Shown one piece after another: positions 6,743 through 52,848 of a DNA stretch of 55,232 bases. The stretch spans positions 1-55,232 of the forward strand of contig CAIYMN010000014.1 of assembly GCA_903927295.1 (NCBI GenBank). Reading direction: 5' to 3'. Within the stretch, counting starts at the first letter, position 1. Each line of letters starts with the position of its first letter. Source of the DNA: an uncultured beta proteobacterium. GTDB taxonomy: Bacteria > Pseudomonadota > Gammaproteobacteria > Burkholderiales > Burkholderiaceae_C. The notes under the pieces are model-generated. The model had not been told where the DNA came from. It saw nothing but the letters and a program-made list of their open reading frames with translations, and did not search any database. Position numbers and translations under genes: made by a program.

Positions 6743-7969
6743 TCAGGTCGTCCGAAGCGCCGTTTCCCGGACGATGGAGGCTTCCTTGATGGGCAGGTTT
6801 ACCAGCGCGGCCAGCAGCCCCAACGCGATGGAGATATACCAGACAAGATCGTAGCTGCCGGTTCGATCGTACAGGTATCCGCCAAGCCAGACTCCGATAA
6901 ATGAGCCGATCTGATGGCTGAAAAATACAAAGCCGCTGAGCATGGAAAGATGCGACACACCGAAGATTTGTGCGACAGTCGCGTTCGTAGGGGGCACGGT
7001 CGATAGCCAAAGCAAACCCATGACGCTGGAAAATACATATACGCTCCAGGGCGATAGTGGTGCCAACAGAAACAGGCTGATGGCAATGGAACGAGCGAAA
7101 TAGATGAAGGCCAGAATGTTCTTCTTCTGTAGTTTTTGTCCCAACGCACCCGCTGCGTAGGTGCCAAATACATTGAACAGGCCGATCAGTGCCAAGGCGT
7201 AGCTTGCTACTTGCGGAGACACACCTTTGTCTTTCAGGTAGCTCGGCATATGGACGCCAATGAAGACGACCTGAAAGCCGCAAACGAAAAAACCGGCCAT
7301 CAGCAATTGGAAACTTGGGTGCTTGAAAGCCTCGCGCAAGGCTTGAACAATGGATTGTTGATGTCGGCTGGTCAAGCCGCCGGTGAGACCCGGCTCGCGC
7401 AGTCCCCACGCGACAGGAACTGCCATCAAGGTGGAGACGCCAAGGACGATCAGTGCTGCCTGCCATCCCAGGCTGCCAATCAGGAATCCCTCGGTCGGCA
7501 CCATCAGGAATTGACCGAAGGAACCGGCTGCTGCTGCCACACCCATGGCCCAGGAGCGCTTCTGCGCTGACACGTTGCGACCAATGACACCGTAAATGAC
7601 GGCGTAGGTTGTGCCGGCCTGCGCCATGCCGATGAGCACTCCCGCAGCCATTGAAAACAGCAGTGGCGTGTTGGCAAAGGCCATGCCGATGAGTCCGATG
7701 GCATACAAAATGGCACCTCCAACAATCACCCGGAAGGCGCCAAACCGGTCAGCCAGCATACCGGCAAATATGCCGGAAAACCCCCACACCAGGTTTTGCA
7801 GAGCAATGGCAAAGGCGAAGGTTTCACGACTCCAACCCTGACTTTGCGTTACGGGTTGAAGCCACAGGCCAAAGCCGTGCCGGATGCCCATGGATAGCGT
7901 CACGACGGTGGCGCCACACAGAAGGACCTGCAGCATGGGTAGTGGTTTTGTGGATGGATTGCCAGGCAT
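6743..7969 (-). CDS. MFS transporter, monocarboxylate/oxalate-formate-antiporter-like
   Basis: A 408-residue inner-membrane carrier with about 12 hydrophobic segments in two halves and a central cytoplasmic loop (GLREPGLTGGLTSRHQQ). The N-terminal half has TLSMGIRHGFGLWLQPV and, after TM2, the MFS motif A-like GMLADRFGAFRV. This N-terminus resembles the MCT/OFA branch that moves organic acids, but the substrate cannot be read. It is the first gene of a minus-strand unit continuing into the 41-aa peptide, the methyltransferase, dapA and bamC. The gap to the divergent slyD-like gene (about 150 bp) holds no recognisable gene. Confidence 0.88.
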   Translation of the reverse strand: MPGNPSTKPLPMLQVLLCGATVVTLSMGIRHGFGLWLQPVTQSQGWSRETFAFAIALQNLVWGFSGIFAGMLADRFGAFRVIVGGAILYAIGLIGMAFANTPLLFSMAAGVLIGMAQAGTTYAVIYGVIGRNVSAQKRSWAMGVAAAAGSFGQFLMVPTEGFLIGSLGWQAALIVLGVSTLMAVPVAWGLREPGLTGGLTSRHQQSIVQALREAFKHPSFQLLMAGFFVCGFQVVFIGVHMPSYLKDKGVSPQVASYALALIGLFNVFGTYAAGALGQKLQKKNILAFIYFARSIAISLFLLAPLSPWSVYVFSSVMGLLWLSTVPPTNATVAQIFGVSHLSMLSGFVFFSHQIGSFIGVWLGGYLYDRTGSYDLVWYISIALGLLAALVNLPIKEASIVRETALRTT

Positions 7970-8118
7970 GCCAGGTGGAGTTCAGAGTTGCAGGGGGAGG
8001 TCGGCGCCTTGACCGCGGAGCGATGGGCAGGTAGATCATTTTACGTAGTAGCGATGACGTGCGGCGTCAATGCGCGAAAATGACACATGGATAAACAGGC
8101 ATTAAGGTGAGTCAGCAC

Positions 8119-8598
8119 ATGAAGATCGAAAAAAACAGCGCCGTCACATTGCACTACAAATTGAGCGATGTCGCCGGCAAAGTACTGGAACGAAGCGAAG
8201 AACCAATGACGTATCTTCATGGTGGCTATGGCAATCTGTTTGTCAAGGTGGAGCAGGCGCTGGAAGGGAAAACTGCAGGCTGTCAGACAACACTCGAACT
8301 GGCCGCGCAGGATGCTTTTGGTGAGCGCGATGAGAGCCTGGTACAGGTCATCCCAAAATCGGAATTTCCACCCGGCGTCAAGGTCGGCGGACAACTTCAG
8401 GCACAAGGTCGGGATGGACGTGCGCGGATGTTTTCCGTGGCGAAGATCAAGGGCCAGTCTGTCATGCTTGATGGAAACCATCCGCTTGCCGGCAAGGCTT
8501 TGCGGTTTTCACTGACCGTGACTGAAGTTCGGCCTGCGACTGACGACGAGATCGCCCACGGTCATGCGCATGGGGCGCATGGCCATCATCACTCTTAG
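8119..8598 (+). CDS. slyD: SlyD-like FKBP-type peptidyl-prolyl cis-trans isomerase
   Basis: 159-residue cytoplasmic prolyl isomerase/chaperone. The FKBP domain is split by the insert-in-flap domain characteristic of SlyD: VTLHYKLSD..G..LERS, then GYGNLFVKVEQALEGKTAGCQTTLELAAQDAFGERD, and finally LDGNHPLAGKALRFSLTV. The C-terminus is a short His-rich tail (HGHAHGAHGHHHS), consistent with the nickel-binding tail of SlyD though shorter and without its Cys residues. The ATG at 8119 follows AAGGTGAG at good spacing; a GTG at 8107 is less likely. It converges with argH, 19 bp away. Confidence 0.9.
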   Translation: MKIEKNSAVTLHYKLSDVAGKVLERSEEPMTYLHGGYGNLFVKVEQALEGKTAGCQTTLELAAQDAFGERDESLVQVIPKSEFPPGVKVGGQLQAQGRDGRARMFSVAKIKGQSVMLDGNHPLAGKALRFSLTVTEVRPATDDEIAHGHAHGAHGHHHS

Positions 8599-8617
8599 CG
8601 AAAGTGAGCGTGCTCCA

Positions 8618-10069
8618 TCATTGCAGCCTGGCACGGTGTGACTCAATTTGCAGCTTCACTTGATCGGGAGCCGTACCGCCAGTTACTTCCCTGGATTCAA
8701 GTGATCCGCGCAACGACAGTACATTGAACACGTCGGTTTCAATCAGCGGGTTGAACTGTTGCAATATTTCCAGTGGCAATGCGGACAATTCGACTTCCCT
8801 TGAAATCGCCATCTTGACAGCGTGAGCGACGGTCTCGTGGGCGTCACGAAAAGGTACGCCCTTCTTTACGAGGTAGTCAGCGAGGTCGGTGGCTGTGGCG
8901 TAACCAAGGGAGGTCGCGCGTTCCATGGCCTTTGCGTTGACCGAGATGCCGCCGTCGATCAGACCAGTCTGCGGATTGACTTGACCGCCGATCATTTCGG
9001 CAAATATGCGCAGTGTGTCCTTCAGTGTGTCGACCGTGTCAAACAAGGGTTCCTTGTCTTCCTGATTGTCCTTGTTGTAGGCCAAAGGCTGGCCCTTCAT
9101 CAGGGTGAGGAGACCCATCAAATGACCAACCACGCGGCCGGTCTTTCCGCGTGCCAGTTCCGGCACGTCAGGATTCTTCTTCTGCGGCATGATGGAACTG
9201 CCGGTCGTGAATCGATCCGCGATCTTGATGAAAGAAAAATTCTGACTCATCCACAAGACGAGTTCCTCACTCAAACGACTGATATGCACCATGCACAGAG
9301 CGGCGGCCGCAGAAAACTCGATGGCGAAATCCCGGTCACTGACGGCGTCGAGCGAGTTTTGGCAAATCTGCGCCTGCCCACGGTCATCAACCATGCCCAG
9401 GGTCCTGGCGACCCGTTCGCGGTCCAGCGGATAGCTGGTGCCGGCCAGCGCTGCGGCCCCTAATGGCAGACGGTTGGTACGGCGGCGAACTTCGCACATG
9501 CGTTCGTGGTCGCGACTGAACATTTCGACGTAGGCTAGCAAATGGTGACCAAAACTGATCGGTTGTGCCACCTGAAGGTGAGTGAAACCGGGCAGGATCA
9601 CGTCTATGTTCCGATCGGCAACATCGAGCAGTGCGCCTTGCAGGTCGCGCAGCAACTCAGTGAGTATGTCAATTTCTCCACGCAGCCAGAGGCGTACGTC
9701 GGTCGCGACCTGGTCGTTGCGGGAGCGTCCTGTGTGCAGGCGTTTGCCAGCATCGCCCGCCAGTTGCGTGAGCCGTGCCTCGATGTTGAGGTGCACATCC
9801 TCCAGATCAAGCTTCCATTCGAACTTTCCGCTTTCGATTTCCACTGCGACCGTGTTCAAGCCCTGCTCGATGGCCGCGTGATCTTTGCGTGAGATGATGT
9901 TCTGGGCGCACAGCATCTCCGCGTGGGCCAGGGAGCCGGCAATGTCGGCGCGCCAAAGTCGCTTGTCGAAGAAGACGCTCGCGGTATATCGCTTGACCAG
10001 GTCGCTCATGGGCTCGGAGAACAGCGCTGACCACGCCTGGGACTTGTTGTCGAACTGGTTGTGTGTCAT
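8618..10069 (-). CDS. argH: Argininosuccinate lyase
   Basis: Cleaves argininosuccinate to arginine and fumarate, the last step of arginine synthesis. Fumarase/aspartase-superfamily signatures are clear: [13 protein letters not shown], the TH pair in [11 protein letters not shown], and the mobile-loop signature [12 protein letters not shown] with the catalytic Ser. Length is 483 aa; a few extra residues precede the usual start near WSALFSEP. The ATG at 10069 (MTHNQFDNK) was chosen over an upstream one at 10126. It is divergent from the LytS-type kinase, the same argH-algZ-algR-hem neighbourhood known from Pseudomonas. Confidence 0.97.
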
Positions 10070-47970: not shown

Positions 47971-48534
47971 CTACTGGCTTCCCAGCCCTGATCCGGTCGC
48001 ACTGCGATGCGATTTCTTGCTGCCATCGAGTTTGCCATCCTTGCGACGCGCTTCAGGCGATGTGTTAGTCGATCCATCACCTGAGTTGGTAAATGACGGA
48101 ATCACCAGAATCAGCATTTGGTTCGCAGTTTTTTGTTGCTCCGATGTCAGATTGGCGTAGAGGGTTTTGGCAGCATCCTCCACTTCCTCCAGTGCTGCCA
48201 GACGGTTTTGCAGGTTGTCAACCATGCGGCCAATCTGATGCGGTGCAGCGTCGTCTGGTGATGGGTCGATCGGTTTTTGCCGGTAGTACGCACTGGTGTA
48301 TGAGTCCACCCGGCTCTCAAAGACACTCCACAGACCTTGCTGCGGATCAGACAATCCGAGGCGATCATGAAGCTGCTGCAATGTGACTTCGCGTGTTCCG
48401 GTCGCACGTGCTGGTGTGACTCCTCTGTTTGTCTCCAAGCGCGTGACCGGATCGGTGGTGAAACCCTTGCCATCTGATTGCGCCCAACTTAACTGGGGCA
48501 CCACAGCGATCAGGAGCCAGGCTAGTTTGTTCAT
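47971..48534 (-). CDS. LTxxQ-type (Spy/CpxP-like) periplasmic protein
   Basis: 187 aa. Signal peptide NKLAWLLIAVVPQLSWAQ, then a helical domain with VTLQQLHDRLGLSDPQQGLWSVFESRVDSYTSAYY and AAKTLYANLTSEQQKTANQML; LTSEQQ fits the LTxxQ motif of Spy/CpxP chaperones. The C-terminus is a charged Ser/Lys/Gly tail. ATG 48534 has GGGAA 7 nt upstream, favouring it over the ATG at 48540. It starts 20 bp after the S-layer-like gene. Assignment is by motif only. Confidence 0.65.
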   Translation of the reverse strand: MNKLAWLLIAVVPQLSWAQSDGKGFTTDPVTRLETNRGVTPARATGTREVTLQQLHDRLGLSDPQQGLWSVFESRVDSYTSAYYRQKPIDPSPDDAAPHQIGRMVDNLQNRLAALEEVEDAAKTLYANLTSEQQKTANQMLILVIPSFTNSGDGSTNTSPEARRKDGKLDGSKKSHRSATGSGLGSQ

Positions 48535-48554
48535 GCACATTTCCCGAAAGTCAA

Positions 48555-49985
48555 TCAAACGACATGACTCAATTCCACGCCAATCAGTGAAACGATCAGA
48601 TCGGGCGTCGAAACGTCTGTCGTTGCAGTCACATCACCGACGACAGCCTTGAGTGTCGACATATCGGTTGTGACGTTATGCAACACCTCGGTGAAGTACT
48701 TCGCTACGGCTGTTTGGTTCTGAAACTGTAGCGCCGTGCCGCCCCAGGTTGCATCATTGGGTGACATGTTCGCCAGATTGCCAAAGACCTGGTAGATCAT
48801 GTCACCACGAGTCCAGCCAGCGTCGAGTGCGCCGGTAATGTCTTTGACCGCTTGAACCTTCGTTGTATCGGATGCACTGTTTTTGACGACATTGGCAACC
48901 AACAAGGTGGCCAAGTCTGCATTCGACATGGATTCAGGATAAGTCAACGTGAACTGCGGCTTGGTCGCGAAGATTTCCACAATCTGTTTGACCGTCAGAC
49001 CTGCGTTGTAGGCGTCGGCCATCTGGCCCATGAAGGTGGCGCCGGGCGCTGCACTGAAGGCAACGACCGAGAAGTGATACAGGCTGTCCAGAGTTTGGGT
49101 TGTGAAGTTGTAACTGCTCAAACCTGCGTAGGAGTTGCCCGCCAGATCATGGACTGCACCGGCGTCAATGCCAATTCCGTAGGTGGAAAAGATGCCGAGG
49201 TCTGTCGTTGGGTTGATTGTCAGCGTGTTACCGACAATGCTGACGTTGCCACTGGTGGCCACGTTGTACGTTGCCACTGTGACGCCAGTAGACGATGTCA
49301 AAGTGATGTTGCCTGTGCCTTTTGCGACGGCTTCACTGAATGTGAACACGATGTCACTGCCCACCGCCACGCCTGCACTTTGGTTGGCTGGGGTAATGGA
49401 GTTGACGATAGGTGGCTTGGTGTCTATGGGCTGCGCGGCGGCAGTGGTTGCCGCGTTGGGGTTGCCGTAGGCATCAGTCACAGACGCTGCATTCAGCGTC
49501 AAGCTCATGGTTCCCTCGGTATTGGCTGCTGGCCCAGCAACCACGCTATAGGAGGTGCCACTGCCCGACACAGAAACGACACTACCGTTGGAAACCGTGA
49601 AGTCGTTCGTCGTCAGTCCGGTAACAACCTCGCTGAATGTCAATAAATAGGTCACATTGCCGGTTGCTGTGCCTGCCGTGTTGTCTGCGATGCTGACGGT
49701 CGGCGGTACTTTGGAGCCAAAAAGGATACGGAGATCGAGCACATCCCGCCCGCTGTTGAAGGTCAGCACCTCCATGTTGTACAAGGTGGCGTGCAGCGCG
49801 GCGCTGGCGCCGGAGATCGAATCAATGTGCACGGCGCCATCGCTGGCCTGGGTGATGTTGTAGGAGGAACGCAAGGACGTGCCCAGGTTCAGCGTATCGA
49901 CGCCTGCCAGACCATCGAGCGTGAAGGTGCCTGGCGTAATGAGGTTCCAGGAATTGTCGCCTGTAGTTCCGGTATAGGTGGGCAT
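48555..49985 (-). CDS. Secreted Ig-like repeat / S-layer-like protein
   Basis: 476 aa with no Sec signal peptide and very Thr/Ser/Asn/Val-rich. Layout: N-terminal MPTYTGTTGDNSWNLITPG and GVDTLNLG, like the start of RTX/S-layer proteins; an SbsA-type Ig domain around 85-190 (VTYLLTFSEVVTGLTTNDF...); a second Big_5-like Ig domain 190-290 (PPIVNSITPANQSAGVAVGSDIVFTFSEAV); and a ~170-residue helical C-terminus (FMGQMADAYNAGLTVKQIVEIFA, NQTAVAKYFTEVL) of a type I recognise from S-layer-like proteins of proteobacteria. Export by type I secretion is likely but no transporter is nearby. GGAG precedes the ATG. It is 58 bp downstream of apbE with no visible terminator. Confidence 0.75.
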   Translation of the reverse strand: MPTYTGTTGDNSWNLITPGTFTLDGLAGVDTLNLGTSLRSSYNITQASDGAVHIDSISGASAALHATLYNMEVLTFNSGRDVLDLRILFGSKVPPTVSIADNTAGTATGNVTYLLTFSEVVTGLTTNDFTVSNGSVVSVSGSGTSYSVVAGPAANTEGTMSLTLNAASVTDAYGNPNAATTAAAQPIDTKPPIVNSITPANQSAGVAVGSDIVFTFSEAVAKGTGNITLTSSTGVTVATYNVATSGNVSIVGNTLTINPTTDLGIFSTYGIGIDAGAVHDLAGNSYAGLSSYNFTTQTLDSLYHFSVVAFSAAPGATFMGQMADAYNAGLTVKQIVEIFATKPQFTLTYPESMSNADLATLLVANVVKNSASDTTKVQAVKDITGALDAGWTRGDMIYQVFGNLANMSPNDATWGGTALQFQNQTAVAKYFTEVLHNVTTDMSTLKAVVGDVTATTDVSTPDLIVSLIGVELSHVV

Positions 49986-50043: not shown

Positions 50044-50943
50044 TCAGGCCTTGGCCGGATTCTTCAGGTGAATGTTGCCAATCTGATCGACTGCTAGGTA
50101 GTCCATGCCGCTGGATTCAAGAAATTCCAGTCCGTCGGACTGCTTGAGCATGGCGATAGTGCTGCAGTTGCCAGCCACCACGGCCAGCGGCGCCACGACG
50201 CTGACCGTGCGCCAGTGCGTTACCGGCTGACCGGACTTCGGGTCCAGAACGTGGCAGTAACGATGGCCATCGAGTTCAAAGAATCGCTCATAGTCGCCGC
50301 TGGTGGCCAAGCCTCCATGGGTCATGGGCATCGTGGCCAGGATCTTGCCCTTTTGGCGCGGATCCTGGATGCCAATCATCCAGGGTTGACCGTCCGGCTT
50401 GGGACCGAACACGCGCATGTCGCCAGCCAGATTCACATACCCGTGCCGCGCGCCAAGTTCCGTGAGCAGGGCGCCGGCGCGATCGGCGGCATATTCTTTG
50501 CCAAAGCCACCGAAGTCAATCTCCATGCCCTGCTGTGGCAAGCGCACTTTGCCTTGTTCACGCTCCACCCGCGACCAGCCAATCAGGGCTCGCAATTGCG
50601 CGAGCTCTGGCTCTGATGGGACCCTTGGCACACGAAAATTCCAGGCCCGACGCAACACACCGCAGGTGATGTCAAACAATTCGCCGCTGTTCCGGTACAA
50701 GGTGTCAGCGTAGCCCAGTAAGGCCCAGGTCTCGTCATCACACTCGATCGGCTGCTGCCCCGCTGCCGCGTTGATGCGTGAAACGATGCTGTCGCTGGAA
50801 TAGCGTGAATATTTTTCCTCAATGCGCTTTACCTCGGCCACTGCCGATTGCGCCAGCTCTTGGGCTTGCTGCTCATCGTCCGTCGCCACCACGAGTTCGC
50901 AGGCGCTGGCCATCGCATCGAAAGGAATACGGAAAACGCGCAT
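50044..50943 (-). CDS. apbE: ApbE-type FAD:protein FMN transferase
   Basis: Transfers FMN from FAD onto a Thr/Ser of a target protein with consensus Dxx(S/T)GA(S/T). 299 aa. Family motifs: FDAMASACELVV near the start, IDFGGFGKEYAADRAGALL, YVNLAGDMRVFG, GGLATSGDYERFF and YCHVLDPKSGQPV. The start MRVFRIPFDAMA leaves no room for a signal peptide or lipobox, whereas most ApbE proteins are exported; no earlier in-frame start exists. It follows the DUF3570 gene by 3 bp, and that product carries a matching DSISGAS motif, the likely substrate. Confidence 0.92.
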   Translation of the reverse strand: MRVFRIPFDAMASACELVVATDDEQQAQELAQSAVAEVKRIEEKYSRYSSDSIVSRINAAAGQQPIECDDETWALLGYADTLYRNSGELFDITCGVLRRAWNFRVPRVPSEPELAQLRALIGWSRVEREQGKVRLPQQGMEIDFGGFGKEYAADRAGALLTELGARHGYVNLAGDMRVFGPKPDGQPWMIGIQDPRQKGKILATMPMTHGGLATSGDYERFFELDGHRYCHVLDPKSGQPVTHWRTVSVVAPLAVVAGNCSTIAMLKQSDGLEFLESSGMDYLAVDQIGNIHLKNPAKA

Positions 50944-50946
50944 GCT

Positions 50947-52092
50947 TCAGAACGGATGCGACAGACCCAGTTGAATGCTTCGGGCGTAGAACGGCAATTG
51001 CGATGGGCTGCCGCTGCCAAAGAGGCGCCAGGAGGCACGCTGCTCGTAATTCTCATACTTCATGTCCATGAGCCAGCCGGCATCCAGTTGCTTGGCCACC
51101 TTCAAGCCCAGCGTATGCGCACCAAAGGCCGATACACGTTGATCTTCTGAATAATTGTCACTGCTGCCGGGAGCAAACGGGAAAGAACTGGCGTCAGGGT
51201 TCACGTAGAAGCTGGCAGCACTTTGCGAGTAAAGACGCGCCAGCGGCGTCACGGTCCAACCCTGTGGCAAGGGCTGCACATACTCAAATCCCAAGGTATG
51301 TGAGTCTATGCCCCACGAGTCGGTGTAGTACCGGTAACTCAGACGTGTCGTCCCCTGCGTGGATTCAAGGTGGTGATTCCAGCGCAGCATGGCAGTGTGG
51401 CTGTCCCTTGTGCTGGGACGGCTGTCGGCAAATTTGTACGGGTCCGAGAAGTCGCCTCGACCCAGAGACAGACTCAGGTTCAGTTGGACGATGTCGTCCG
51501 TGGTAAGAACCTGGGTCACACCTAATAGCAGGCCAGTCACTTGCTTGGTCGCATCCACGACGGCAAAGTTCGTCGGATTAATGACGTCGCTGTTGTATCC
51601 CAGCCCCGCAGTCCAAGTCGTATTCTTGTCTTCGCTCGATCGCGTTGCCTGCAGTGACAGCCCCCTGGACAGGTAGTCGGATTCGCTGGAAACGTTGGCA
51701 CCCAGGGTCAGCGTGCCGTTGGGAAAATAGCGAGTCACATTGGCCTCAAGCGCACGTCGGTGGTCGTGCATCGGCGTAATGGATGAGCTTTGGTACAGCG
51801 GCGACGCTCCTGAAATGCTGTCGGACGTGACGGTGCCGCCAAACGACCATTCGCCTGAAATAGGTGCAAGAATGCTGAGCGCGGAAGCCTGTACCTTGAT
51901 GCGCGACGTGTCCGGCTGACTGTCTTGGTAGTCCAGATACTTGAAGGCGATAAGACCGCGCTCAGGCGCACTCTCGGCATGGACAACCCCCGTCAGAGGC
52001 AATGCCAGTGCGGCGGTCATCAGGGCTGTTCCGACGGTTCGACGAGGTGCAGACTCGATCGGCTGACGAGAAGCGTTTTGAAGTTTGTCCAT
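50947..52092 (-). CDS. DUF3570 outer-membrane beta-barrel protein with a flavinylation-like motif
   Basis: 381 aa. Long N-terminal signal: 19 hydrophilic residues with an Arg pair (APRRTVGTALM), hydrophobic core, and AHA-type cleavage site near VVHA/ES. The rest is alternating polar/aromatic strands and ends in SIQLGLSHPF, a classic BAM-recognised C-terminal Phe; this is the DUF3570 family. At residues 91-97 it has DSISGAS, matching Dxx(S/T)GA(S/T), the motif where ApbE attaches FMN (Ser97 would be the acceptor). Directly upstream of apbE, downstream of the DUF4266 gene by 28 bp. Role unknown; an outer-membrane flavoprotein in extracytoplasmic electron transfer is my inference. Confidence 0.82.
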   Translation of the reverse strand: MDKLQNASRQPIESAPRRTVGTALMTAALALPLTGVVHAESAPERGLIAFKYLDYQDSQPDTSRIKVQASALSILAPISGEWSFGGTVTSDSISGASPLYQSSSITPMHDHRRALEANVTRYFPNGTLTLGANVSSESDYLSRGLSLQATRSSEDKNTTWTAGLGYNSDVINPTNFAVVDATKQVTGLLLGVTQVLTTDDIVQLNLSLSLGRGDFSDPYKFADSRPSTRDSHTAMLRWNHHLESTQGTTRLSYRYYTDSWGIDSHTLGFEYVQPLPQGWTVTPLARLYSQSAASFYVNPDASSFPFAPGSSDNYSEDQRVSAFGAHTLGLKVAKQLDAGWLMDMKYENYEQRASWRLFGSGSPSQLPFYARSIQLGLSHPF

Positions 52093-52120
52093 TGTCTTGG
52101 TCTTGTGTTAACAGGTAATT

Positions 52121-52345
52121 TCAATTGCAGCCGCAGCCACCGCCGCCGACGCCCGATCCGCCAGAGGAACCTTCCTTGCTGCCGTACACATGCTCGGTGA
52201 ATGCTGCGTCCAAACGGTCGCCGTCAAATGTCATTTCCGGCTTCGCCAGATTTCCCTTTTCCCAGGGGCTGACCTGAACAACACCAGCGCAACCGCTTAA
52301 CAGCAACGCGGTTGCAGTCAGAAGGCTCAATGCAAGTGGCTTCAT
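52121..52345 (-). CDS. DUF4266 lipoprotein with Gly/Cys-rich C-terminus
   Basis: 74 aa. Lipoprotein signal with lipobox LLSGC (Cys19), then VQVSPWEKGNLAKPEMTFDGDRLDAAFTEHVYGSKE and a Ser/Gly tail ending GGGGCGCN, all typical of DUF4266. The terminal Cys-Gly-Cys suggests a disulfide or metal site that the upstream thioredoxin could reduce. The start overlaps the stop of the TlpA-like gene (ATGA); DUF3570 follows after 28 bp. Function unknown. Confidence 0.85.
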   Translation of the reverse strand: MKPLALSLLTATALLLSGCAGVVQVSPWEKGNLAKPEMTFDGDRLDAAFTEHVYGSKEGSSGGSGVGGGGCGCN

Positions 52346-52848
52346 CAGTGATCCTTGATGTTCAGTGCCAGTTTGATCTGGCGTTCCAGTTCGACGCGGT
52401 TTTCGTCGCGAAAGCCGCTGTGCACCAACAGCACCTTTCCGTCTGGTCCGATCAAGATGGAGGTGGGCATGCCTTTGACAGCGTAGCTGCGCGGCGTCTT
52501 TCCGGTCTGGTCAAAGGCGACATCAAAGGCTGCAGGGGTTTCTTTCAAGAAGGCTCTCGCGTCGTCGGGTTTCTGGTCGACGTTGACTGCTACCACGCGC
52601 AGACCTTTGCCGCCGTAACGAGCATGCATTTCGTTCATCCACGGGAACGACTGCTTGCAAGGGCCGCACCAGGAGGCCCAGAAGTCCAGATAGATTGTCT
52701 TTCCCTTGTAATCGCTGAGTTTGACGTTCCCCATTCGTCCCGTAAGATCAAACTCGGGTGCGGTCTGGCCGCTCTCGACGGCAAGGGCTGGTAAGCCCGC
52801 TAGCAGGCTCATAAGCAGCACTGCGGTTTGAGAATAAATGTTTTTCAT
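52345..52848 (-). CDS. TlpA/ResA-like periplasmic thioredoxin
   Basis: 167 aa. Signal peptide (AVLLMSLLAGLPALA), thioredoxin fold with redox-active Cys61/Cys64 in FWASWCGPCKQSFPWMNEM, and the cis-Pro in VKGMPTSILIGPDGK. The layout (APEFDLTGRMGNVKLSDYKGKTIYLDFWA) fits TlpA/ResA-type reductants. First gene of the DUF4266-DUF3570-apbE unit, so it probably keeps Cys of an envelope partner reduced; the CGC of the DUF4266 lipoprotein is the obvious candidate. Confidence 0.9.
   Translation of the reverse strand: MKNIYSQTAVLLMSLLAGLPALAVESGQTAPEFDLTGRMGNVKLSDYKGKTIYLDFWASWCGPCKQSFPWMNEMHARYGGKGLRVVAVNVDQKPDDARAFLKETPAAFDVAFDQTGKTPRSYAVKGMPTSILIGPDGKVLLVHSGFRDENRVELERQIKLALNIKDH

Follow-up and report, generated by a model that had tools for sequence, protein, structure and literature searches.

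The closest described relatives of the system analysed here are gene clusters in which ApbE, a transferase that attaches flavin mononucleotide (FMN) to other proteins, is encoded together with DUF3570, a thioredoxin and DUF4266. The parts of the 2021 survey that deal with them count 316 such clusters without DsbD, place DUF3570 in 227 among the DsbD clusters, and report that the DUF3570 protein of Chlorobium luteolum is flavinylated by its own ApbE at two [ST]GA[ST] sites, in E. coli experiments in which signal peptides were absent and DUF3570 was insoluble (Meheust 2021, PMC8238504). An outer-membrane barrel, relaxed motifs, a signal-less ApbE and a fifth RTX-like gene are not mentioned in these passages; the main text uses ‘outer membrane’ once, on TonB receptors, and ‘beta-barrel’ never. 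The relevant sections of a 2024 follow-up (PMC11334425) name the outer membrane once as a site of flavinylation substrates and do not name DUF3570 there; the DUF2271 and FMN-bind substrates that they cover likewise have FMN covalently attached to a Ser/Thr of an exported protein, but are small soluble domains, unlike a barrel or an RTX-like protein. The locus described here lies in the window, i.e. the whole 55,232-nucleotide stretch of contig CAIYMN010000014.1 from an uncultured beta proteobacterium. It encodes the same four families, again with DUF3570 as the predicted ApbE substrate, followed by a fifth gene for an RTX-like protein which carries the very same heptapeptide, DSISGAS. We propose as a plausible but tentative reading that these genes encode a surface flavoprotein module, in which a barrel and an RTX-like protein, both labelled by ApbE, would relay electrons to the cell surface.

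The genome containing the window, from a freshwater bacterium, is 87% complete in 400 contigs, and one DUF3570 and one ApbE were found in it. All the genes discussed are on the minus strand. A first-pass annotation had described four of them in a row with gaps of -1, 28 and 3 bp, and the coordinates of the open reading frames and the Pfam matches bear this out: a TlpA/ResA-like secreted thioredoxin with WCGPC (52345-52848, 167 aa; Redoxin 9.3e-23, AhpC-TSA 1.4e-22), a small DUF4266 lipoprotein with the C-terminus GGGCGCN (52121-52345, 74 aa; PF14086 5.4e-23, 82.1 bits), DUF3570 (50947-52092, 381 aa; PF12094 1e-61, 209.5 bits against a cut-off of 25) and an ApbE-family FAD:protein FMN transferase (FAD, flavin adenine dinucleotide; 50044-50943, 299 aa; PF02424 1.4e-74, 251.4 bits against a cut-off of 25.6). 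The RTX-like gene (48555-49985) begins 58 bp downstream of apbE, with GGAGA preceding its ATG. DSISGAS is located, as annotated, at DUF3570 residues 91-97 (51802-51822), where it is the sole [ST]GA[ST] site of the protein and Ser97 the predicted FMN acceptor; it recurs at residues 55-61 of the RTX-like protein (49803-49823), the same seven residues being encoded by seven different codons. The 55 window genes predicted by a simple gene caller comprise 12,122 residues, in which D..[ST]GA[ST] matches only these two times, while 500 residue shuffles gave 0.094 matches on average and two or more in 0.4% of cases. The annotation had also suggested DUF3570 as an ApbE substrate. The conserved motif and the barrel fold support this, and the cluster is real; the idea is not new, as flavinylation of the Chlorobium luteolum protein was shown, and such clusters were counted, already in 2021 (passages of PMC8238504). 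The fifth gene with its identical heptapeptide, the lack of both a signal peptide and the catalytic Asp in ApbE, and the single remaining site in DUF3570 go beyond that annotation.

How well is the putative acceptor conserved? An alignment was made of 131 DUF3570 proteins (the window protein and 130/132 left by a redundancy and length filter of 330-500 aa, which removes short fragments as well as fused forms that reach 873 and 912 aa). Every one of the 131 has S or T at position 97, which answers in the affirmative the question, raised by the first-pass annotation, of whether homologues keep the motif; D91 is kept in 125, S/T94 in 130 and A96 in 126. Position 95 is more variable (G 68, S 35, N 24, A 4). 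A strict [ST]GA[ST] is present in the hairpin of 90 proteins and a strict search misses the other 41; an earlier estimate that it overlooks half of the family was corrected by this recount. Counting [ST]xA[ST], the hairpin contains two sites in 87 proteins, one in 43 and three in a single protein. The window DUF3570 has one [ST]GA[ST] site near its N-terminus, with apbE in cis 3 bp downstream, whereas the Meheust 2021 passages describe two sites. The fused forms, at loci L127 and L191, are about twice the usual length and contain DTWSGAT.

The glycine-less variants include the SNAS-type DUF3570 proteins of Burkholderiaceae, which read DAVSNASIDVVTTAS at the motif. In seven of their genomes the only ApbE is encoded some 7 kb upstream of the DUF3570 gene; FMN_bind and DUF2271 were not found in these seven, in a search that did not extend to NqrB/RnfD, Flavodoxin_4 and FMN reductase substrates. 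More generally, ApbE is single-copy in 15 of 42 DUF3570 genomes, and in 15/15 it is sited at the DUF3570 locus. Because single-ApbE genomes without the other searched substrates keep the relaxed motif, it is likely, judging from sequence, to be an ApbE target. A previous idea that motif-less DUF3570 proteins sit in operons without ApbE was an artefact of short flanks: wider flanks and whole genomes reveal apbE about 7 kb upstream, and the loop of these proteins proved to keep the relaxed motif.

The active site of the transferase introduces a complication. The window ApbE keeps the Ser (TSG) and His (HVLDP) of the proposed triad and matches FMN transferases in the PDB down to 8.9e-39; the column that corresponds to Asp285 of Vibrio ApbE, by our own counting from the His, is occupied by Gly. 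This Gly is common to most proteobacterial DUF3570-linked ApbEs: the column contains G 63, D 22, N 6, E 1 and one gap in 93 signal-less linked enzymes, D 11 and G 2 in 13 with a signal, and Glu in all seven SNAS-operon enzymes, along with Lys at the Thr position. This branch of ApbE could consequently have lost or changed its activity, with the DUF3570 S/T-x-A-S/T serving structure or binding in the barrel, and the replacement of the motif glycine in 63/131 DUF3570 proteins would fit that as well. We consider this reading very unlikely, as the triad Ser is kept in 102/102 ungapped ApbEs and the His in 92/93, the motif persists in the single-ApbE genomes discussed above, and the Chlorobium protein is flavinylated (passages of PMC8238504). 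Furthermore, replacing the motif Gly with Ala in another ApbE substrate leaves about half of the flavinylation (sections of PMC12052999). The motif glycine and the ApbE Asp column also co-vary (61 G-G pairs; S with D 21, N 6, G 1), but since this tracks phyla it proves nothing.

The AlphaFold2 model of DUF3570 is a 16-strand outer-membrane barrel with a mean predicted local distance difference test score of 89, and the even strand number, the signal peptide and the C-terminal aromatic residue all agree with this class. A sequence search returned 0 solved DUF3570 structures. As for the first-pass question of whether the motif is buried in a membrane strand, strand order suggests that it lies in the outer extension of the strand, not in the membrane part, and by the rules for outer-membrane proteins the FMN serine would be placed in an extracellular, lumen-facing vestibule. 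Conservation is concentrated in the same area: 36 of the 40 most conserved residues fall in the vestibule (24 expected), with the invariant ones clustered pocket-like at the outer mouth of the barrel. Invariant Tyr, Arg, Asp, Glu, Gln and Trp residues would surround the FMN. The predicted barrel character and this extracellular cluster appear to be new compared to the published flavinylation. Tat export, considered due to RR at the N-terminus of the window protein, was dropped as close relatives, e.g. L063-L066, lack RR; flavinylated DUF3570 would reach the outer membrane by Sec and BAM.

In which compartment would the FMN be attached? The longest possible frame of the window ApbE begins MRVFRIPFDAMAS, only nine residues before the core, and therefore there is no room for an N-terminal signal. 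By a crude rule (an uncharged 11-mer with mean hydropathy of at least 2.0) a signal-like stretch is found in 11 of 110 same-strand DUF3570-linked ApbEs (that of L072 sits in a long overhang), as compared to 107/120 thioredoxins, 114/142 DUF3570 proteins, 62/135 DUF4266 proteins and 7/7 lipoprotein ApbEs not linked to DUF3570. The absence of the signal suggests that flavinylation precedes export, so that a cytosolic ApbE would modify Ser97 of DUF3570 and Ser61 of the RTX-like protein before either leaves the cytoplasm. Alternatively, ApbE might arrive in the periplasm by an unrecognised route and act after export as in classical systems. Most characterised ApbEs are indeed exported lipoproteins (sections of PMC12052999), and the 11 linked enzymes with a signal-like stretch include Bacteroidota and gammaproteobacterial ones; this alternative is nevertheless improbable in our opinion, given the short frame of the window enzyme and the precedent of a cytosolic ApbE in Klebsiella pneumoniae (cited in PMC12052999, in the same sections). 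The latter, which acts with a soluble fumarate reductase, is signal-less as in the window, but its substrate remains cytosolic while those predicted here are exported.

The N-terminal domain of the RTX-like protein, for which we found no signal peptide, resembles RTX-associated domains. Its homologues contain HemolysinCabind, DUF4214 and Big_5, and nonapeptide repeats (PF00353) are present in 7 of 9 scanned and absent from the window protein. In these domains and in the lack of a signal peptide the family resembles type I secreted RTX proteins with DUF4214; it differs from them by D..S[GS]AS in the N-terminal domain, and the window copy matches Big_12 and Big_5 only. Export to the cell surface would proceed by a signal-peptide-independent route, e.g. 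type I secretion; one HlyD scores above the cut-off in the window genome, on a different contig. The AlphaFold2 model scores 87-95 in the blocks covering residues 1-90 and 77 over the whole protein (predicted template modelling score 0.47), with the end of the motif in a loop. A close homologue exists in 3 of 60 relatives, namely the window genome and two near-identical copies. At L059, which has an identical DUF3570, the RTX-like protein (7108-9024) shares its N-terminal 95 residues with the window protein (48555-49985), while the whole proteins are 61% identical (638 and 476 aa): in near-identical organisms the C-terminal part and the length differ, and a constant flavin domain with a variable C-terminus looks like surface-protein diversification, as far as sequences can tell. 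An LTXXQ (Spy/CpxP-like) gene (47971-48558, same strand) shares 4 bp with the end of the RTX-like gene and may lengthen the operon.

Matches to the N-terminal domain occur in 20 of 399 family genomes. Two of the 32 match rows, which lacked a locus, and four that were second copies in a protein already counted were left out. Of the 11 motif-bearing copies that remain, 10 are no more than 10 kb away from DUF3570 and the eleventh is also in a DUF3570 genome, whereas only 1 of 15 motif-less proteins (in genome G181) is that close. This association makes the RTX-like protein a candidate second ApbE substrate via Ser61. It is somewhat unlikely, though a serious alternative, that only DUF3570 is flavinylated and that the RTX-like motif arose by chance drift of an RTX-associated sequence in an unrelated neighbouring gene. 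Generic RTX-associated copies read like DKTGAEG, where TGAE is a near miss, the search profile was built from motif-bearing proteins, and motif-less RTX-domain proteins do occur at seven DUF3570 loci (L070, L071, L077, L080, L152, L154, L155), directly after apbE at L154:4193-5092 (in G181) and L080:7048-7884. Chance drift is, however, difficult to reconcile with the retention of D55, S58, A60 and S61 at 90% or more in 22 RTX-like proteins whose identity to the first is 19-61%, and the strict motif is missing where a second copy of the domain occurs in such a protein (DAFTAAS in one case). Neither ApbE together with RTX and type I secretion nor flavin on a secreted surface protein was met in the literature searched, which leaves out most subscription papers; flavin on the DUF3570 family was already known.

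The remaining two genes could supply the electrons. WCxxC is kept in 120/120 operonic thioredoxins examined. The C-terminal CxC of DUF4266, which the window protein shows together with the PF14086 profile, is found in 135/135 non-redundant homologues and GGGCGCN in 126, counts that are partly circular as the search model includes the tail. Among sampled genomes, DUF3570 was detected in 41 of 200 from the family and 29 of 398 from the phylum, and a related-locus search returned 68 loci, whose hosts range from Undibacterium, Limnohabitans and uncultured Betaproteobacteria to Bacteroidota and Elusimicrobia. At 148 partly redundant DUF3570 loci, some cut by locus ends, there are matches to DUF4266 at 146, thioredoxin at 138 and ApbE at 116. 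The window genome has one DsbD, and L061, whose DUF3570 is 79% identical, has a DsbD-like frame downstream. Electrons would pass from DsbD in the inner membrane to the TlpA-like thioredoxin and on via the CxC tail of DUF4266 to the FMN of the barrel, which would hand them over either to an external acceptor or to the RTX-like protein's own FMN. The thioredoxin and DUF4266 could instead be maturation or repair factors, or electrons could flow inward from an external reductant, with the FMN barrel being an external flavoenzyme. The pocket-like cluster at the outer mouth would suit an enzyme, as would the link of the SNAS branch with a hydrazine-synthase-alpha-like cytochrome; the DsbD-like frames near 15/148 loci and the 227 DsbD clusters in print (passages of PMC8238504) favour the reducing direction, and we regard this alternative as unlikely.

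SNAS-type DUF3570 belongs to a longer operon (L209:1-9535; also L208, L210-L212, L217-L220), comprising ApbE, a lipoprotein of about 1030 aa with an HZS_alpha middle domain and CxxCH motifs, a small CxxCH protein, two proteins resembling outer-membrane proteins, thioredoxin, DUF4266, DUF3570, a protein of about 200 aa and a TPR protein. The HZS_alpha-domain lipoprotein is a possible surface cytochrome partner of DUF3570. No called gene of L209, L217, L172 or L179 contains a strict motif that would indicate another ApbE substrate. A TGAT does occur in the HZS-alpha-like protein (about 1000 aa) of L208, and that of L212 contains SGAT twice; in L210 and L218 such a motif is found in unrelated genes, so a different ApbE substrate is conceivable in the SNAS operons. 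Porin-cytochrome conduits such as MtrCAB carry electrons across the outer membrane by a barrel with a cytochrome threaded through it. A barrel would be used in the window as well, but with FMN on the barrel itself, and the operon contains no heme protein.

Several points weigh against the proposed surface module. FMN on both DUF3570 and the RTX-like protein is a prediction. The topology of the barrel follows from strand order, not from coordinates, and a beta-bulge would turn Ser97 away from the lumen. Gly at the catalytic-Asp column counts against ordinary activity of the window ApbE. The signal rule misses many DUF4266 lipoproteins, a minority of linked ApbEs do carry a signal, and signal-less ApbEs also exist away from DUF3570 in Burkholderiaceae (L235, L237, L241, L243, L256). 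Genome G087 has two motif-less RTX-domain copies at a distance of 12-13 kb from DUF3570, slightly beyond our limit of 10 kb, and among hand-picked DUF3570 loci motif-bearing proteins are found at 13 and motif-less ones at 7. Finally, DsbD-like frames accompany just a tenth or so of the loci (15/148). The more far-reaching form of the proposal, that a cytosolic ApbE flavinylates two differently exported precursors to build a heme-free relay across the outer membrane, with the first flavin-bearing barrel conduit and the first flavinylation prior to export, is something we put forward with considerable reserve.

If the proposal is true, ApbE flavinylation would extend to the cell surface and could come before export, and ApbE would acquire a further class of substrate. 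Flavin on both a barrel and a surface protein would hint that electrons are transferred at the cell surface without heme. A search restricted to [ST]GA[ST] does not see the whole DUF3570 family, as it misses 41 of the 131 hairpins analysed. The function of DUF3570 clusters in turn becomes a testable question, with two named serines, one ApbE and a genome without the other searched substrate families.

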